Assembly (NCBI GenBank): GCA_905236245.1 | Contig: CAJOPC010000030.1 | Location: forward strand, 1 to 35,287 | Length of the DNA: 35,287 bases | Origin: an uncultured Alphaproteobacteria bacterium | GTDB taxonomy: Bacteria > Pseudomonadota > Alphaproteobacteria > CAAHEQ01 > UBA3637 | Direction of reading: 5' to 3' | Shown here: one piece after another, positions 6,844-35,287 of the stretch | Layout: each line of letters begins with the position of its first letter | How positions within the stretch are numbered: the first letter of the stretch is position 1 | Notes under the pieces: generated by a model | The model's input: only the letters and a program-made list of their open reading frames with translations | What the model was told of the DNA's origin: nothing | Databases searched by the model: none | Made by a program: the position numbers and the translations under genes

Positions 6844-9438
6844 ATGTCTAAATATAAAGAAACAAAAGGGTTGGATCAGCGCCTAAACGCTGCTGAAATT
6901 GAAAATAAATGTATTCAATTTTGGGAAGATAATAAGGTATACGCCTATGATAAAACAGCTTCCCGTGAAAACACTTTTGTAGTAGACACTCCTCCTCCCA
7001 CCGTATCTGGTTCTTTGCATATTGGCCATATCATGTCTTATACTCAAGCTGAAATTATGGTTCGTTATCAACGCATGATGGGTAAGTCCATTTTCTATCC
7101 AATCGGATGGGATGACAATGGTTTACCAACAGAACGTCGTGTTCAAAACTATTTTAATATCGCTTGTAATCCGGCAATCCCCTATGATCCGAATTTCAAA
7201 CCGCAACATATTGAAAAGGATGAGCGCCCTCGTCAAGAGGTATCTCGTGATAATTTTATTGAGGCTTGTGAAGAATTAATTAAGGTGGATGAAAAGGCTT
7301 TCTATAATATTTTCCATCGTATTGGCCATTCTTATGATTGGGATATTACATATTCCACTATTGGTAAGAGTGCTCGTGCAGTGAGTCAGGCGTCCTTCCT
7401 GGATTTAGCAGAAAAAGGATTAGTTAAATCTATTGAAGCGCCGACTATGTGGGATGTGGATTTTGGTTGCGCTATTGCTCAGGCCGAGATTGAAGATCGT
7501 GAAATGGATAGTTTCTTCCACGATTTAAAATTCAAGATTAAGGATTCTGATGAATATTTAACTATTGCAACAACACGTCCGGAATTTTTGCCGGCCTGTA
7601 TCGCTGTTGTGGCCAATCCGGAAGATGAGCGTTATAAGCCATACTTTGGTAAAACAGCCATCGTTCCCGTGTTCGATATTGAAGTGCCTATTTTGGCGTC
7701 CGAACATGCCGTTATGGATAAAGGAACAGGTATTTTGATGGTTTGTACTTTTGGTGACGCGGATGACGTTGCTTGGTGGAAAAAGTCAGGTTTACCCATT
7801 AAACAAATTGTTGGTTTGGATGGTCGTATTATTGATCAAGAATATGGCGTGGCCCCCTTTACCAGTATGAATCCGGAAAAGGCAAAGGCTGCTTATGATC
7901 AAATGATTGGTCTTAAAATGCCAGCTGCCAGAGAAAAAGTTGTGGCAATGTTGCGCGAAAGTGGTGATTTATTGGCCGAACCAAAACCAATTCGTCACCC
8001 AGTGAAATTCTATGAAAAAGGATCCCATCCGTTGGAATTTGTCTCGTCTCGTCAATGGTTTATCAGTTTGTTGCCGCATAAAGCCGACTTGTTGGCTCAA
8101 GGTCGTAAAATTAAATGGACGCCGGCCCACATGCAATCGCGTTATGAAGCATGGGTTAATGGCTTAAATCAAGATTGGTGTATTTCACGCCAACGCTATT
8201 TCGGTGTGCCGTTCCCAGTTTGGTATCCGATCAAGGATAATGGGACTATTGATTACGAAAATCCGATTTATGCCGATAAGAATTCTTTGCCGGTAGATCC
8301 GATGAGTGATGTTCCGGCTGGTTATACAGCGGATCAACGTGGTGTGCCAGGTGGCTTTGCCGGAGATCCAGATGTGATGGATACTTGGGCGACCAGTTCT
8401 GTGACACCTCAGATTGCGATGGCAACCGAGAAAGGCCAAGGATTGGGTTTGCCGTTTGATATGCGTCCACAAGCACATGACATCATTCGGACATGGGCAT
8501 TCTATACAATCGCAAAAGCATGGTTCCATGACAAAGAAATTCCATGGAAACAAGCACTTATCAGCGGTTTCGTGTTGGACCCGGATCGTAAGAAAATGTC
8601 TAAGTCTAAAGGAAACGTGGTGACCCCAATGAATCTGTTGGAAAAACATTCTTCTGATGCGGTGCGTTATTGGGCCGGTCGTGCTAAAATTGGTATTGAT
8701 GCCTTGTTTGAAGAACAAGTGATGGAGCAAGGTCGTAAGTTGACCATGAAGTTGTTTAATGCTTCCAAGTTTGTGTTTATGATTTTGGAAAAGGCCGGGG
8801 TTACCAATGCCCTCTCCCAATCTGATATCACAAATCCGTTAGACAAGTCATGGTTGGCACAGTTAAAGGAAACGATTGAAACGGCAAACCGTTCCTTCAA
8901 AGAGGATGACTATGCGTTTGCTTTGGAAATGACAGAAAAGACATTCTGGAATTTCTGTGACAATTATTTGGAAATTGTAAAGGGGCGTGCGTATGAGGCA
9001 GATAAGTCTGCGTTGGCCAGTTTGCAGTTGACATTAGATACCTTGTTGCAATTGTTCGCTCCATTTTTGGTGTTTACAACAGAGGAAATTTGGCAATCTC
9101 GTCCATGGGGTGCCGATGAAAAGTCTATTCACGTACGGCATTTTCCGCAACCTGAAGATTTGACTGTGTCCACAGATACCGCTTTATATAATACAGTGTT
9201 GAATGTGGTTGATTTGATTCGTAAGGCAAAGGCCGAGAACCAAAAGTCTTTGAAGACGCCGATTGTCGAGTTGGCAATGACGGCGCCGAAAGCTGCCCTG
9301 CCCTTGATTGATCAGGCAAAACGTGACATTGTTAATGTGTCAAATATTCAAGGTGATGCCTTTACAATGGCGGAAGCTGCGGAATATGCAATGACGAATT
9401 GTGTATTTGGTGAAAACGAACCAAAGACGCAAGCATAA
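6844..9438 (+). CDS. valS: Valyl-tRNA synthetase, archaeal/rickettsial-like form
   Basis: This class I synthetase charges tRNA-Val. The HIGH motif is HIGH at residues 59-62 (after PPPTVSGSL), and KMSKS is at 584-588 followed by KGNVVTP. The CP1 editing region lies between, with TTRPEFLPACIAV. At 864 aa it is shorter than standard bacterial ValRS. It ends without an obvious C-terminal coiled-coil arm. The active-site context (DNGLPTERRVQ, PFDMRPQAHDIIRTWAFYTI) fits the archaeal-like ValRS known from Rickettsiales. That assignment rests on remembered family features; a tree would settle it. GAGGAAAA precedes the start. Confidence 0.95.
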   Translation: MSKYKETKGLDQRLNAAEIENKCIQFWEDNKVYAYDKTASRENTFVVDTPPPTVSGSLHIGHIMSYTQAEIMVRYQRMMGKSIFYPIGWDDNGLPTERRVQNYFNIACNPAIPYDPNFKPQHIEKDERPRQEVSRDNFIEACEELIKVDEKAFYNIFHRIGHSYDWDITYSTIGKSARAVSQASFLDLAEKGLVKSIEAPTMWDVDFGCAIAQAEIEDREMDSFFHDLKFKIKDSDEYLTIATTRPEFLPACIAVVANPEDERYKPYFGKTAIVPVFDIEVPILASEHAVMDKGTGILMVCTFGDADDVAWWKKSGLPIKQIVGLDGRIIDQEYGVAPFTSMNPEKAKAAYDQMIGLKMPAAREKVVAMLRESGDLLAEPKPIRHPVKFYEKGSHPLEFVSSRQWFISLLPHKADLLAQGRKIKWTPAHMQSRYEAWVNGLNQDWCISRQRYFGVPFPVWYPIKDNGTIDYENPIYADKNSLPVDPMSDVPAGYTADQRGVPGGFAGDPDVMDTWATSSVTPQIAMATEKGQGLGLPFDMRPQAHDIIRTWAFYTIAKAWFHDKEIPWKQALISGFVLDPDRKKMSKSKGNVVTPMNLLEKHSSDAVRYWAGRAKIGIDALFEEQVMEQGRKLTMKLFNASKFVFMILEKAGVTNALSQSDITNPLDKSWLAQLKETIETANRSFKEDDYAFALEMTEKTFWNFCDNYLEIVKGRAYEADKSALASLQLTLDTLLQLFAPFLVFTTEEIWQSRPWGADEKSIHVRHFPQPEDLTVSTDTALYNTVLNVVDLIRKAKAENQKSLKTPIVELAMTAPKAALPLIDQAKRDIVNVSNIQGDAFTMAEAAEYAMTNCVFGENEPKTQA

Positions 9439-31312: not shown

Positions 31313-31341
31313 TTGACATATATTGAGGTTTGTGTTATACT
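31313..31341 (+). promoter_or_regulatory. Strong sigma70-type promoter of the Thr leader and thrS
   Basis: A perfect TTGACA (31313-31318), 17 bases, then TATACT (31336-31341). The predicted transcription start (about 31347-31348) falls on the A of the leader-peptide ATG, so the leader mRNA may be leaderless. Confidence 0.8.
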
Positions 31342-31347
31342 CAAGCC

Positions 31348-31455
31348 ATGTTAAATGAAAGAAACAACTTTTCTAAATTATTTGAACAGAACTTTGAAAA
31401 AAGCTCTGTGTTGTTTCGTGTGGCTTTGACCTTAACCACAACCACCACCGCCTAA
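31348..31455 (+). CDS. Threonine leader peptide (35 aa) of an attenuator
   Basis: The 35-codon frame starts MLNERNNFSKLFEQNFEKSS and ends ALTLTTTTTA. Six of the eight codons before the final Ala are Thr (five ACC, one ACA; 31429-31449), far above chance. This is the hallmark of ribosome-mediated attenuation, as in E. coli thrL. The stop codon lies inside a terminator hairpin, and the gene that follows encodes a threonyl-tRNA synthetase. No ribosome-binding site is visible; the ATG appears to lie at the transcription start, as reported for the leaderless trp leader of Sinorhizobium. The peptide itself probably has no function. Confidence 0.88.
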   Translation: MLNERNNFSKLFEQNFEKSSVLFRVALTLTTTTTA

Positions 31456-31477
31456 GCGCGGTGATACTTTTTATTTT
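31446..31477 (+). terminator. Attenuator terminator of the threonine leader
   Basis: CACCGC (31446-31451) pairs with GCGGTG (31458-31463) around CTAAGC, followed by ATAC and TTTTTATTTT. The 5' arm is made of the last Thr and Ala codons, so a ribosome waiting at those codons would cover it and let transcription reach thrS. A second pairing, TGTGG/CCACA, lies just upstream. Confidence 0.82.
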
Positions 31478-31542
31478 CTGGATTTTAAAATCCATACACA
31501 CAATTTCAAGTTTAACAATTCTAATAGTAAAGGTTAAAAAAA

Positions 31543-32814
31543 ATGAATAATAATAATGAAAAACAAAGTTTATCCGAAAACGACCACCGTCGTATCGGTA
31601 AAGAATTAGATTTATTTTCTTTCAGTGAATATGTCGGTTCTGGTTTGGCCTTATGGCATCCAAACGGCGCAATTATAAGAAACGAAATTGAATCTTTTTG
31701 GAAAAAAGAACATCAAAAAGCTGGATATAAATACGTTTATTCTCCCGTTGTCGGATTAAAACAACTGTGGGAAAAATCCGGTCATTTGGATCATTTTGCG
31801 GATTGTATGTATCCGCCAATGGATATGTCCTTAAAAGATAAGGAAGAACAAGGGGCTTATTACGTCAAACCAATGAGTTGCCCTTTCCATGTCGCGATTT
31901 ATAATGCTTCTGTGCATTCATACAAAGAATTGCCGATTAAATATTGCGAATTGGGAAATGTTTATCGTTACGAAGCATCCGGCGGCCTGCAAGGGTTGTT
32001 GCGCGTGCGTTGTATCACGCAGGATGATGCGCATATCATTTGCCGTCAAGATCAATTTATGGAAGAATTGTCAAAAGTCTTTGATTTCGGCTTTGCCATT
32101 AACAGAGTCTTTGGTTATGACAAATTCAAAGTTTATTTTTCCATACGTGATATGAAAAATAAAAAAGACAAATATATTGATAATGAACCCATTTGGAAAA
32201 TGGCAGAACAGTCCATCGAACAAGTGTTAAAAGACAAAAACATTCCGTACGATATTGATGTCGGTGGCGCAAAGTTTTATGGTCCGGCAATAGACGTTTA
32301 TGCGATTGATAAAAACGGAAAGGAATGGCAATGTATGACGATACAATTGGATATGAATCTACCGGAAAAATGGGGAATGTTCTATATTGGGGAAGACGGA
32401 GAAAAACATGTTCCCGTTATGTTGCATCGTGCTATATTGGGTGCTATTGAGCGCTTTATAGGTGTGTACTTGGAACGATGCAAAGGCAAATTACCTGTTT
32501 GGTTGTCACCTATTCAGGTTGAAATATTGCCTGTATCGGATAAACATCAAAAAGCGGCCGAACAAATCCAACAACAATTATTGGAAAATGACGTCCGCGC
32601 GGAAGTTGACATTTCCGGTAACACGGTTTCTTATCAAATCAGAAACGCTGTCAAGAAAAAAGTCCCTTACATCATTGTCGTGGGTGACAAAGAAATTGAA
32701 AGCAACAGCATTTCTGTTCGTTTAAGAGATGGGCAGCAAATGAACAATATTCCTTTGCTTGACTTCATAAAACGTGTATCAGAAAAGATAAAAAACAGAA
32801 GCTTGGATTTGTAA
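31543..32814 (+). CDS. thrS: Short threonyl-tRNA synthetase without TGS and editing domains
   Basis: At 423 aa this ThrRS is about 220 residues shorter than the usual bacterial enzyme. It begins directly at the catalytic core (HRRIGKELDLFSFSEYVGSG), so the N-terminal TGS and Ser-tRNA editing domains are absent. The zinc and threonine ligands are kept: Cys113 (KPMSCPFH), His164 (TQDDAHI) and His295 (VMLHRAILG). Motif 2 reads RVRCITQDDAH where RVRGFTQDDAH is usual. The anticodon domain covers about 320-423. Editing-less second ThrRS copies are known, for example in cyanobacteria and crenarchaea. Whether a full-length thrS exists elsewhere is unknown. AAAGG precedes the ATG; its expression should rise when Thr-tRNA is scarce. 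Confidence 0.93.
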   Translation: MNNNNEKQSLSENDHRRIGKELDLFSFSEYVGSGLALWHPNGAIIRNEIESFWKKEHQKAGYKYVYSPVVGLKQLWEKSGHLDHFADCMYPPMDMSLKDKEEQGAYYVKPMSCPFHVAIYNASVHSYKELPIKYCELGNVYRYEASGGLQGLLRVRCITQDDAHIICRQDQFMEELSKVFDFGFAINRVFGYDKFKVYFSIRDMKNKKDKYIDNEPIWKMAEQSIEQVLKDKNIPYDIDVGGAKFYGPAIDVYAIDKNGKEWQCMTIQLDMNLPEKWGMFYIGEDGEKHVPVMLHRAILGAIERFIGVYLERCKGKLPVWLSPIQVEILPVSDKHQKAAEQIQQQLLENDVRAEVDISGNTVSYQIRNAVKKKVPYIIVVGDKEIESNSISVRLRDGQQMNNIPLLDFIKRVSEKIKNRSLDL

Positions 32815-32820
32815 AAATAA

Positions 32821-32849
32821 AATCCCTCACTTTTGTGGGGGATTTTTTT
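32821..32849 (+). terminator. Terminator of thrS
   Basis: AATCCCTCAC (32821-32830) and GTGGGGGATT (32835-32844) form a 10-bp stem with one G-U and a TTTT loop, followed by a T-run to 32849. Confidence 0.92.
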
Positions 32850-33153: not shown

Positions 33154-33240
33154 GCTGTAAATCCTTTTTAGTGACACCTAGTAGTAGGTTTAACTAGAGT
33201 GATTTCTATGAAGGCTGTTATCCCATTAACAGCCTTTTTT
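33154..33240 (+). ncRNA. Candidate small RNA (about 87 bases) next to ImmA gene
   Basis: The RNA would run from the promoter at 33119-33147 to a perfect terminator: GGCTGTTA (33213-33220), loop TCCCAT, TAACAGCC (33227-33234), then TTTTTT. No supported reading frame lies inside. Its 5' part contains AATCCTTTTTAGT, complementary to the AAAAAGGA ribosome-binding region of the divergent 40-aa gene. Its terminator touches the stop codon of the immA-like gene on the other strand. Confidence 0.65.
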
Positions 33241-33808
33241 ACTGCCAATTAAGTTGCTGTAATTTCTGCCTCCTTGTCTCTGCTGCGGAAAATGATACAC
33301 CGCACGATTTGATTATTTCCTGTGTACTCATGTTTTTAACCATGGGATATGGCATTAGAAGTTCAGCGGCAAAAACATCTGCTTGCCACTCGGAATCTCT
33401 CCATGGCTCTAAAAATTTTGGAAAATCTTTTGTTTGACGAGAAAATGAAATATCTTCTTTGTGTCCTAAAGATAAATGTCCTAATTCGTGTGCAATAGTA
33501 AATCTTGATTGTCCATCTCCCTCACAAGCTTTATTATAAACACTTTCTTTTATACGAATAATTTTATCTTGTGGAAATGTTTCTGCAAATTTACCTTTTA
33601 ATACAGGGTCAGTGTCAGAAATAATTTCATACCCATAATCTGGTAAATAATCTGATCCAAAGTATTCCATGATTTGAACAATATCACAATACACGTGATT
33701 TGTTATCCCAAAAATATGTCTAATATTAGATGCTACTGCACGAATATCTACAATTCGTTTGGGCGAAACAGGAATACCACTACTTCTTATCATACCTAAA
33801 CTAGTCAT
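33239..33808 (-). CDS. ImmA/IrrE-type metallopeptidase
   Basis: The 189-aa protein has the zinc-binding HELGH at residues 107-111 in FTIAHELGHLSLGH, with a downstream EWQADVFAAELLMP helix supplying the third ligand, as in ImmA/IrrE/DUF955 proteases. Such proteases cleave a partner XRE-type repressor to switch on a mobile element or stress genes. The preceding gene encodes just such a repressor, and the two abut (TAAATG), so they are co-translated. GGAGG lies inside the end of the XRE gene. The C-terminus ends shortly after AAETRRQKLQQLNWQ. Confidence 0.93.
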   Translation of the reverse strand: MTSLGMIRSSGIPVSPKRIVDIRAVASNIRHIFGITNHVYCDIVQIMEYFGSDYLPDYGYEIISDTDPVLKGKFAETFPQDKIIRIKESVYNKACEGDGQSRFTIAHELGHLSLGHKEDISFSRQTKDFPKFLEPWRDSEWQADVFAAELLMPYPMVKNMSTQEIIKSCGVSFSAAETRRQKLQQLNWQ

Positions 33809-34183
33809 TTATTTTTCCTCCAGTATAGCCTTAATTGCTTTTTGTTGTTCATCTGATAATTCATTAATTTTACGTGCAAAGCTATATGCTAAGGACTGAA
33901 TTTCGGCATTAGAGGTATTTATTTTTAAATTTATTCTATTTTTTTGTTTTAACTCCTCTTCACGAGTCTTAGCAATAGCTTCTTCGAGAGCAGAATATTG
34001 TTCTTTTGAAATTTGGTAGTTTTGTATAAATCTATCTACAAAATTTACCGGGATACTTTTCTTCCCTGTTTCCATGGCAGACAGGAAAGAAGATGAAATT
34101 TCCAAGGTCTTACTCATATCGTATAATTTTATTCCCAACATAATACGAAATGTCTTTAACCATTTTCCAAATTCTGTGTTCAT
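33809..34183 (-). CDS. XRE-family repressor, partner of the ImmA-type protease
   Basis: The 124-aa protein has an N-terminal helix-turn-helix (about residues 5-60), in which LYDMSKTLEISSSFLSAMET is the typical XRE two-helix segment. A charged, coiled-coil-prone C-terminal half follows (KTREEELKQKNRINL, INELSDEQQKAIKAILEEK). It likely binds operator DNA as a dimer and is cut or removed when its ImmA partner is activated, as for ICEBs1 ImmR/ImmA. A consensus promoter and an inverted repeat over the ribosome-binding site suggest autoregulation. The start has AAAGGAG. Confidence 0.9.
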   Translation of the reverse strand: MNTEFGKWLKTFRIMLGIKLYDMSKTLEISSSFLSAMETGKKSIPVNFVDRFIQNYQISKEQYSALEEAIAKTREEELKQKNRINLKINTSNAEIQSLAYSFARKINELSDEQQKAIKAILEEK

Positions 34184-34205
34184 TGTAAATCTCCTTTCAT
34201 TTACA
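34184..34205 (-). promoter_or_regulatory. Inverted repeat around the XRE ribosome-binding site
   Basis: TGTAAAT (34184-34190 and, inverted, 34199-34205) forms a perfect 7-bp dyad with an 8-base centre holding the GAAAGGAG ribosome-binding site. It may be an operator, or an mRNA hairpin presenting the site in its loop. Confidence 0.55.
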
Positions 34206-34211
34206 GAAATT

Positions 34212-34241
34212 ATTATAGAGATAAAAAAAACGAAATGTCAA
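34212..34241 (-). promoter_or_regulatory. Consensus sigma70 promoter of the XRE-ImmA pair
   Basis: On the minus strand TTGACA (34236-34241), 18 bases, TATAAT (34212-34217): both boxes are perfect consensus. Confidence 0.85.
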
Positions 34242-34348
34242 CCCTTTTTGTAAAAAAAATTCACCTATAAGGTTAATTTTTAAATAATTTCAATAAAATC
34301 AATGTATTATAATTTTGTTTTTTTATTCACAACACGAGTAAATTAACT

Positions 34349-35287
34349 TTAAGCTGCTTCCAAAGGTAAATAATTAACAAGAAGTCCGACTGGATGAGCT
34401 ATTTTATCAAATTCATGTAAATGGGTGCTGATATAGTCTGGAACCTCATTTTTAACATCCACATTCATAAAAGCAGAAAATGGTGGACGAATATTATATT
34501 TTAATTTATCACCATCTAAAACAGCATCCTGAATCAAAAGCCTTAATAACTGATTTTGTACCTTCGGATCGGCTGTTTTCATGATATTTGAAAGATTACC
34601 CACGATTTCAACAATCCTTTCCACCGTATCCTTAATTTCAGAAGTGATAGCAACATATTTTTGATCCTTTGATTCTAATTCAGCAATTTTGGTTTCCATT
34701 TCAGTTTTGGCTTCTTGATATTCTTCCTTAGTAATATCCTTATCTAAAAATGCGTTAAACAAATTCCTTTTTCTGTTTTTTAATTCTTCCAGCTGTATTG
34801 TATTTTCACGTTTTACAGCAGCACTAATCTTTGAATCTTCTTCTAATCTCATTTTTACATTACTTTTAAGAGCTAACAATATATTTTCCGGTATTTGTAG
34901 TTTAGAAAATACTTCTTGTTCCAACTGATTTAATAATTTAGATTCAGGAACAGGCTTTTGATGGCAATTCCCTCTCATGTGGCTGCATCTTAGATAACGA
35001 AACACAAGACCGCTTTTTTTAGTATGCTGTTCAGAAGTAATACAACACCCACAAGTTGCACATCTGACTAATCCACGAAAAATAAATGCTTTCTTTCCAT
35101 AGATTTGTTGGTGTGGAATAATATTTTTTTTACCACGGTCATCTAATACCTTTTGAACCATATCAAACAATTCTGGTGTAATAAGTTTTGGATGTATATG
35201 TGGATATGCTTTATTCTTAACAACCATAATGCCACAGTAAAATGGATTACGTAAAATATCATTGATTTTATGCCGGCTGATTGGATG
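34349..35287 (-). CDS. Large serine recombinase, C-terminal part (cut by window edge)
   Basis: The frame is open to the right edge, reading HPISRHKINDILRNPFYCGI before the first internal Met at 35227, so the true start and the catalytic resolvase domain lie outside. What is seen is the recombinase domain (NPFYCG...HPKLITPELFDMVQ) and the zinc ribbon (RCATCGC...LRCSHMRGNC). A long coiled coil follows (about 170-250 of the visible part), then a C-terminal tail. Large serine recombinases of this kind integrate and excise phages, ICEs and resistance elements. Together with the XRE-ImmA pair it marks the end of a mobile element or a remnant of one. Confidence 0.92.
   Translation of the reverse strand, partial: HPISRHKINDILRNPFYCGIMVVKNKAYPHIHPKLITPELFDMVQKVLDDRGKKNIIPHQQIYGKKAFIFRGLVRCATCGCCITSEQHTKKSGLVFRYLRCSHMRGNCHQKPVPESKLLNQLEQEVFSKLQIPENILLALKSNVKMRLEEDSKISAAVKRENTIQLEELKNRKRNLFNAFLDKDITKEEYQEAKTEMETKIAELESKDQKYVAITSEIKDTVERIVEIVGNLSNIMKTADPKVQNQLLRLLIQDAVLDGDKLKYNIRPPFSAFMNVDVKNEVPDYISTHLHEFDKIAHPVGLLVNYLPLEAA

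Follow-up and report, generated by a model that had tools for sequence, protein, structure and literature searches.

Attenuation through a leader peptide has already been described for aminoacyl-tRNA synthetase genes, and several known systems share features with the locus considered here. In Escherichia coli, the thrL–thrABC leader (RF00506) governs biosynthesis and works via an antiterminator, and the pheM–pheST attenuator is a switch of the trp type. At E. coli pyrBI, the ribosome blocks the terminator directly with no antiterminator, and the response is to UTP-dependent pausing of the polymerase. An auxiliary, antibiotic-resistant tryptophanyl-tRNA synthetase of Streptomyces, trpRS1, is reportedly also under attenuation, and its role in resistance is said to have been established by Vecchione and Sello in 2010. 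Leader-peptide attenuation is known as well for Streptomyces leuS and trpS (PMC1262725), and PMC8079986 proposes an attenuator for Streptomyces lividans thrS, which is preceded by the Thr-containing leader MKRVRPFLETTPGFVPAR, and describes leader-peptide attenuation for alaS. With respect to a second threonyl-tRNA synthetase (ThrRS), cyanobacteria possess an editing-impaired enzyme, T2, that is induced by zinc shortage and for which the constitutive ThrRS, T1, edits in trans (PMC4787780). Our literature search found no work that brings thrS and threonyl-tRNA synthetase together with attenuation by a leader peptide; Lopatovskaya et al. (2010), which according to its citation in PMC4833913 covers attenuation of aminoacyl-tRNA operons, could include thrS examples. 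What is new in the locus described below is the combination of a terminal Thr run embedded in a terminator, a spare ThrRS devoid of editing domains and broad comparative support.

The window, by which we mean the whole 35,287-nucleotide stretch that was analyzed, is contig 30 of a 1.12-Mb alphaproteobacterial genome that is 85% complete. A first-pass annotation of this DNA had claimed a promoter, a 35-codon Thr leader, a terminator built from the Thr codons and a ThrRS lacking TGS and editing domains, and a check of the sequence found every one of these elements in place, all on the forward strand. Specifically, a consensus scan locates the promoter at 31313–31341, with a −35 box TTGACA (31313–31318), a 17-nt spacer and a −10 box TATACT (31336–31341); the match to consensus is 11 of 12, a TG precedes the −10 box, and relatives of the locus keep the boxes at a near-constant distance from the leader ATG. 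The leader open reading frame (31348–31455) translates as MLNERNNFSKLFEQNFEKSSVLFRVALTLTTTTTA, 35 codons ending in ALTLTTTTTA, with its ATG at 31348 and a TAA stop at 31453–31455. Since this ATG is only 6 nt downstream of the −10 box, the leader mRNA is probably leaderless. The putative regulatory codons span 31429–31449 and comprise Thr (31429–31431), Leu and five further Thr (31435–31449; ACC ACA ACC ACC ACC), Thr accounting for 6 of the 8 codons that precede the final Ala. A scan predicts an intrinsic terminator at 31446–31477, in which CACCGC (31446–31451) pairs with GCGGTG (31458–31463) in a 6-bp stem followed by a U-rich tail, ATACTTTTTATTTT. The leader’s stop codon sits in the loop of this stem, whose 5′ arm is made of the Ala codon and the last part of the Thr tract. 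Within the leader, an internal hairpin recognized from an alignment of 14 loci (31387–31408; CAGAACTT/AAGCTCTG) is a candidate RNA polymerase pause hairpin.

The interval between the terminator and the gene contains an A+T-rich hairpin that is seen in most relatives (31479–31494; TGGATTTTAAAATCCA) and a weak Shine–Dalgarno-like AAGG (31530–31533). The ThrRS gene itself (31543–32814) encodes 423 residues and was assigned from Pfam, NCBIfam, relatives in the PDB and individual residues; direct reading of the sequence places a further terminator 3′ of it (32820–32849), AAATCCCTCAC-TTTT-GTGGGGGATTT with a T run after it. The short thrS is adjoined by genes for an ImmA/IrrE-like M78 peptidase, an HTH regulator and a recombinase zinc-ribbon protein (33239–35227), a group looking like a mobile-element remnant. 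Elsewhere in the window, a valyl-tRNA synthetase (6844–9438) is matched better by the NCBIfam ‘exception’ model alt_ValS than by the usual bacterial valS models.

That the Thr run and hairpin should be a chance arrangement has a practically negligible probability. Shuffling the upstream 400 nt by dinucleotides reproduced the leader and hairpin, defined as a leader with at least five Thr among its last nine codons and a stem at the stop, in 0 of 4000 trials. A leader of this kind with a stem at its stop is also unique in the whole window when both strands and any amino acid are considered. The string Thr-Thr-Thr-Ala-stop occurs three times genome-wide, two of these being the leaders of the genome’s two thrS genes, and the arrangement recurs upstream of thrS genes that lack the TGS domain. 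Conservation, described next, rules the chance explanation out.

A scan of genome contigs recovered 13 further genes of the short-ThrRS clade, 71–89% identical to the window gene. Across the order to which the window genome belongs, the short copy is found in 1 of 43 genomes, namely the window genome itself; one of the 13 relatives, at 71% identity, resides in a genome of another order. Judging from isolate names and in part by inference, the relatives that have names probably stem from Alphaproteobacteria living in ruminant and termite guts. In every one of the 14 clade genes, an open leader frame ends in a Thr run and a hairpin lies at its stop codon. Loss of the Thr run or hairpin from relatives that keep the gene had been named in advance as the outcome that would speak against attenuation of an editing-less ThrRS by way of Thr codons, and its complete absence from the clade lends that proposal support at the level of sequence. 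The parts, their order and their spacing can likewise be read from the sequences: the leader is 31–36 codons long in 14/14 loci, a short translatable frame whose run of cognate codons ends in Ala (Phe in one), the stop codon falls within or beside the hairpin loop, and the terminator stem measures 5–8 bp. A U-rich tail follows in nearly all loci, L130 and L132 having poor tracts (5–6 of 12). By these features, a sequence-predicted intrinsic terminator stands between leader and gene. Some 6–9 nt separate the end of the −10 box from the leader ATG across the clade loci, which points to leaderless mRNA throughout the clade.

The internal hairpin is similarly maintained, with 91.7% of cells in the 14-locus alignment paired and three of its eight pairs changed on both sides, and the covariation score of the whole two-helix structure was reached by 0 of 500 shuffles. 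Among Thr codons of the 14 leaders, ACC makes up 59 of 71 (22 of 29 when the last three are left out), versus 20% in the genes of the window; given this bias, it may be the tRNA(Thr) decoding ACC that the leaders sense. The flanking genes differ between lineages and only the leader and the gene are held in common, and we therefore conclude that the two move together. Phages and plasmids yielded no relative of the short ThrRS above 60% identity and viral contigs yielded none, so that an origin of the gene in phages or plasmids was set aside.

We put at roughly 0.85 the probability that the locus is a self-contained cassette that moves horizontally, made up of promoter, Thr leader, terminator and editing-less ThrRS and controlled by ribosome-mediated attenuation through direct occlusion. 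From the arrangement we infer that the mRNA starts leaderless, that the polymerase pauses and terminates, and that read-through takes place and responds to charging. In the proposed sequence of events, RNA polymerase would make a leaderless leader mRNA and would probably pause at the early internal hairpin, allowing the first ribosome to load and catch up. With Thr-tRNA(Thr) plentiful, the ribosome would clear the Thr codons and exit at the stop, and the terminator would form and end transcription. With Thr-tRNA scarce, be it through low threonine or through an inhibited or limiting main ThrRS, the ribosome would stall within the Thr run and mask the terminator’s 5′ arm with its front edge, and polymerase would continue into the spare ThrRS gene. 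Taking the ribosome front as the A site +12, we found that a ribosome with a Thr codon in its A site overlaps the 5′ arm partly or fully in all 14 loci, the exceptions being one or two Thr codons at the start of the run. A ribosome stalled on the first Thr codon would thus leave the 5′ arm free, which speaks against occlusion at that position. The placement of the stop codon in the terminator loop could have a further consequence, as a terminating ribosome would briefly block the hairpin and permit high basal read-through.

No conserved antiterminator partner for the 5′ arm was found upstream in the clade loci, where the possible duplexes are weaker than the terminator and vary in position. 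An antiterminator hairpin of the trp-type switch was rejected on this basis, and we therefore describe the locus as a direct-occlusion attenuator rather than filing it under the trp type. In this respect it resembles pyrBI, in which the ribosome also blocks the terminator directly, but the pyrBI cue is not codon starvation. The thrL–thrABC leader shares the run of Thr codons and the terminator, whereas the leader in the window precedes a ThrRS gene, has no antiterminator and has no Rfam match. The pheM–pheST attenuator, which is annotated in L240, likewise places a leader peptide upstream of a synthetase gene but concerns Phe and a different enzyme. Searches with the T-box, Thr_leader (RF00506) and other Rfam families gave no match at gathering score and none of relevance at a relaxed threshold; lacking covariance-model matches, the T-box riboswitch and the Rfam Thr_leader were both dismissed as classifications. 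A translational operator of the E. coli thrS type was also rejected, as the TGS and editing domains are both absent from the short ThrRS. The T-box and this operator were the known thrS controls listed by the first-pass annotation, a list that leaves out S. lividans. As far as the available part of PMC8079986 goes, S. lividans thrL–thrS is similar in having a leaderless Thr-containing leader peptide upstream of thrS; it differs in that thrL has two Thr codons only, no terminal run and no U-rich terminator, and it was proposed without comparative support.

Two other modes of action for the leader were considered alongside occlusion. The leader might act on translation or mRNA stability, with a stalled ribosome protecting or opening the message and the hairpin serving as a stability element. 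The extra A+T-rich hairpin ahead of the gene in the window would fit such a role, as would a related TGS-less group in which the hairpin has a poorer U-tract and is often followed by a second promoter-like site. Nevertheless, we regard it as unlikely, given the U-rich tail in nearly all short-ThrRS loci and the fact that the hairpin ends about 80–120 nt upstream of the ThrRS start, leaving the ribosome-binding site uncovered. It is also conceivable that a product of the leader, be it the peptide or the terminated RNA, works in trans, cis regulation of thrS being secondary, a possibility with precedent in the alphaproteobacterial leaderless attenuator RNA of Sinorhizobium, for which both peTrpL and rnTrpL have trans functions (PMC7298713). 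The body of the peptide is only weakly conserved, however (pN/pS 0.87 overall and 0.72 without the tail), in contrast to its length, its Thr end and the hairpin, and the leader precedes thrS at the loci examined, which makes action in trans very improbable. Such low conservation is usual for leader peptides, and the pN/pS values provide no independent proof of translation.

In the short ThrRS, Pfam recognizes a class II core and an anticodon-binding domain and nothing else. It scores 512.5 against a thrS cut-off of 383.65 (TIGR00418), the match beginning at position 164 of the 565-position profile. The zinc ligands C334, H385 and H511 of the E. coli enzyme are kept as C113, H164 and H295, and R363, Q381, D383, Y462, Q484 and R520 (E. 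coli numbering) are all retained. Two positions that are invariant in 73/73 other ThrRSs, A460 and K465, are replaced in all 14 short enzymes (A460K and K465A, versus 0/73), and Y313F and L493W are likewise fixed in the clade. The exchange of K465 for Ala raises the question of whether the protein has ceased to charge tRNA and serves another role. We consider this quite improbable, as the zinc ligands and the six other residues are intact, a lysine is present five residues away at position 460, and a Thr-responsive switch suits a charging enzyme. Structure prediction for the short ThrRS, run from too shallow an alignment, reached a mean pLDDT of 58 and was set aside.

On the tree, the short ThrRSs form a single clade of 14 with support of 100, outside the alphaproteobacterial enzymes, and because of this placement the gene was presumably gained horizontally at some point; the tree gives no firm sister group, and its branches here are long. 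Descent from the host’s own thrS was discarded on the same placement and an identity of 42%. Two further observations concern short or divergent ThrRSs elsewhere. L010 (G017 contig 8) is a further divergent second ThrRS, found within the same family of genomes, about 600 residues long, 47% identical to the short one and on a very long branch, and it is without a Thr leader. In Kribbella (L154–L164), short ThrRS frames of about 412–434 residues are too short for an editing domain, and the detector found no Thr leader there.

The fixed substitutions suggest a possible tolerance of inhibitors. Ala460 forms part of the obafluorin pocket (PMC11252418), and the residue matching Y313 falls in the borrelidin subsite (PMC4389257). 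The short ThrRS could accordingly be an inhibitor-tolerant copy that is induced when the main ThrRS is inhibited, a tentative idea that is compatible with the attenuator and to which we give a minority chance. It would be in keeping with the four pocket changes A460K, K465A, Y313F and L493W, with the monophyly of the clade and with the fact that 12 of the 13 other host assemblies also encode a full-length ThrRS. On the other hand, the usual residues are kept (G247 and L273 of the short enzyme) at both positions that are exchanged in ObaO, G463, whose importance has been demonstrated, and L489, so that the short ThrRS is not of the obafluorin-resistant ObaO type (G463S with L489M); furthermore, the locus is linked to no producer or inhibitor, and the attenuator would answer equally to simple threonine shortage. 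Streptomyces trpRS1 offers a parallel in being a spare synthetase under ribosome-mediated attenuation with a housekeeping copy alongside. It differs in concerning Trp and Actinobacteria, and for the short ThrRS resistance is a possibility raised by sequence.

The first-pass annotation had called the enzyme a possible backup and had suggested a search for a full-length thrS. A second thrS does occur in the same genome, encoding 578 residues with the editing residues kept, which fits the backup role; it too is without TGS. An error-prone enzyme, as also put forward, need not translate into cellular errors: with its editing residues intact, this second ThrRS could supply editing in trans, in the way that T1 serves T2 (PMC4787780). 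The likeness to cyanobacteria extends to a stress-induced, editing-impaired second ThrRS next to an editing one, but T2 has a degenerate editing domain with an insertion and is under Zur/zinc control (PMC4787780). Having no editing domain at all and forming its own clade, the short ThrRS was not assigned to the T2 type; cyanobacterial plasmid ThrRSs are about 42% identical to it. Threonine synthase (thrC, TIGR00260) was not found in the host genome (G000, an assembly that is 85% complete) and was present in 14/14 controls. As no thrC was found, the threonine supply may be external, and threonine auxotrophy of the host is possible.

The second thrS of the host has a Thr leader of its own, MKKANCFYLYTTCVTTTA (ending YTTCVTTTA), which lies just past a −10 box and has a long U-tract. 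Such a leader is not restricted to the short copy but also stands before other thrS genes. The second thrS genes of the 12 other host assemblies comprise five that contain TGS and have no leader, six that lack TGS and have a leader, and one without upstream DNA. In a survey of 141 classifiable alphaproteobacterial genes, which counts our own gene twice (L001 and L043) and a few other loci likewise with the picture unchanged, a Thr leader with a hairpin at its stop accompanied 86 of 94 TGS-less thrS genes versus 2 of 47 TGS-containing ones, the count being drawn largely from one family of closely related genomes. With the detector set to any other amino acid, it returned at most 5, and two of the eight TGS-less misses show a Thr run and a weaker stem. 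When TGS loss and the leader are mapped on the tree, only about three to four independent pairs carry information, and almost all of them point the same way (p ≥ 0.125); because the pairs are so few, the association is suggestive and not proven. The two TGS-containing genes with a leader and hairpin, L119 and L239, come from a single small-genome family within another order, and may be intermediates. Upstream of the TGS-less genes L051–L053, L073–L099 and L200–L238, the hairpin takes the form ACCCC-NNNN-GGGGGT and is followed in many by a promoter-like site. This site, TTGCGN-17/18-TATAAT, overlaps an inverted repeat and scores at least 9 of 12 in 58 of 81 loci, as if these genes had a second, unattenuated promoter.

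Taken together, these comparisons indicate that a device of this kind precedes the majority of housekeeping thrS genes without TGS in related Alphaproteobacteria, where it would presumably serve the same function, and the joint occurrence of TGS loss and leader, in few phylogenetically independent cases, suggests the replacement of one regulatory device by another. A broader and more doubtful synthesis, which we would not favor at present, would treat the locus as a ‘sense and replace’ cassette that is mobile among gut Alphaproteobacteria. Here, the occlusion attenuator would release a rebuilt ThrRS (the lysine moved from 465 to 460 and the inhibitor pocket altered) upon failure of the main ThrRS and act as an inducible gene for tolerance of ThrRS inhibitors, and TGS-less lineages would run their main thrS through the same kind of Thr attenuator. 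Alongside the T-box and the translational operator of E. coli, both well known as controls of thrS, the Thr-codon leader would represent another kind, backed by comparison over many alphaproteobacterial genomes, small-genome lineages included. The fixed active-site exchanges of the clade pose a concrete biochemical question about inhibitor tolerance. Moreover, with a spare ThrRS devoid of editing placed under a putative sensor of Thr-tRNA charging, the question of why an unproofread synthetase is kept becomes a testable one, the prediction being that such an enzyme would be produced only upon failure of charging.
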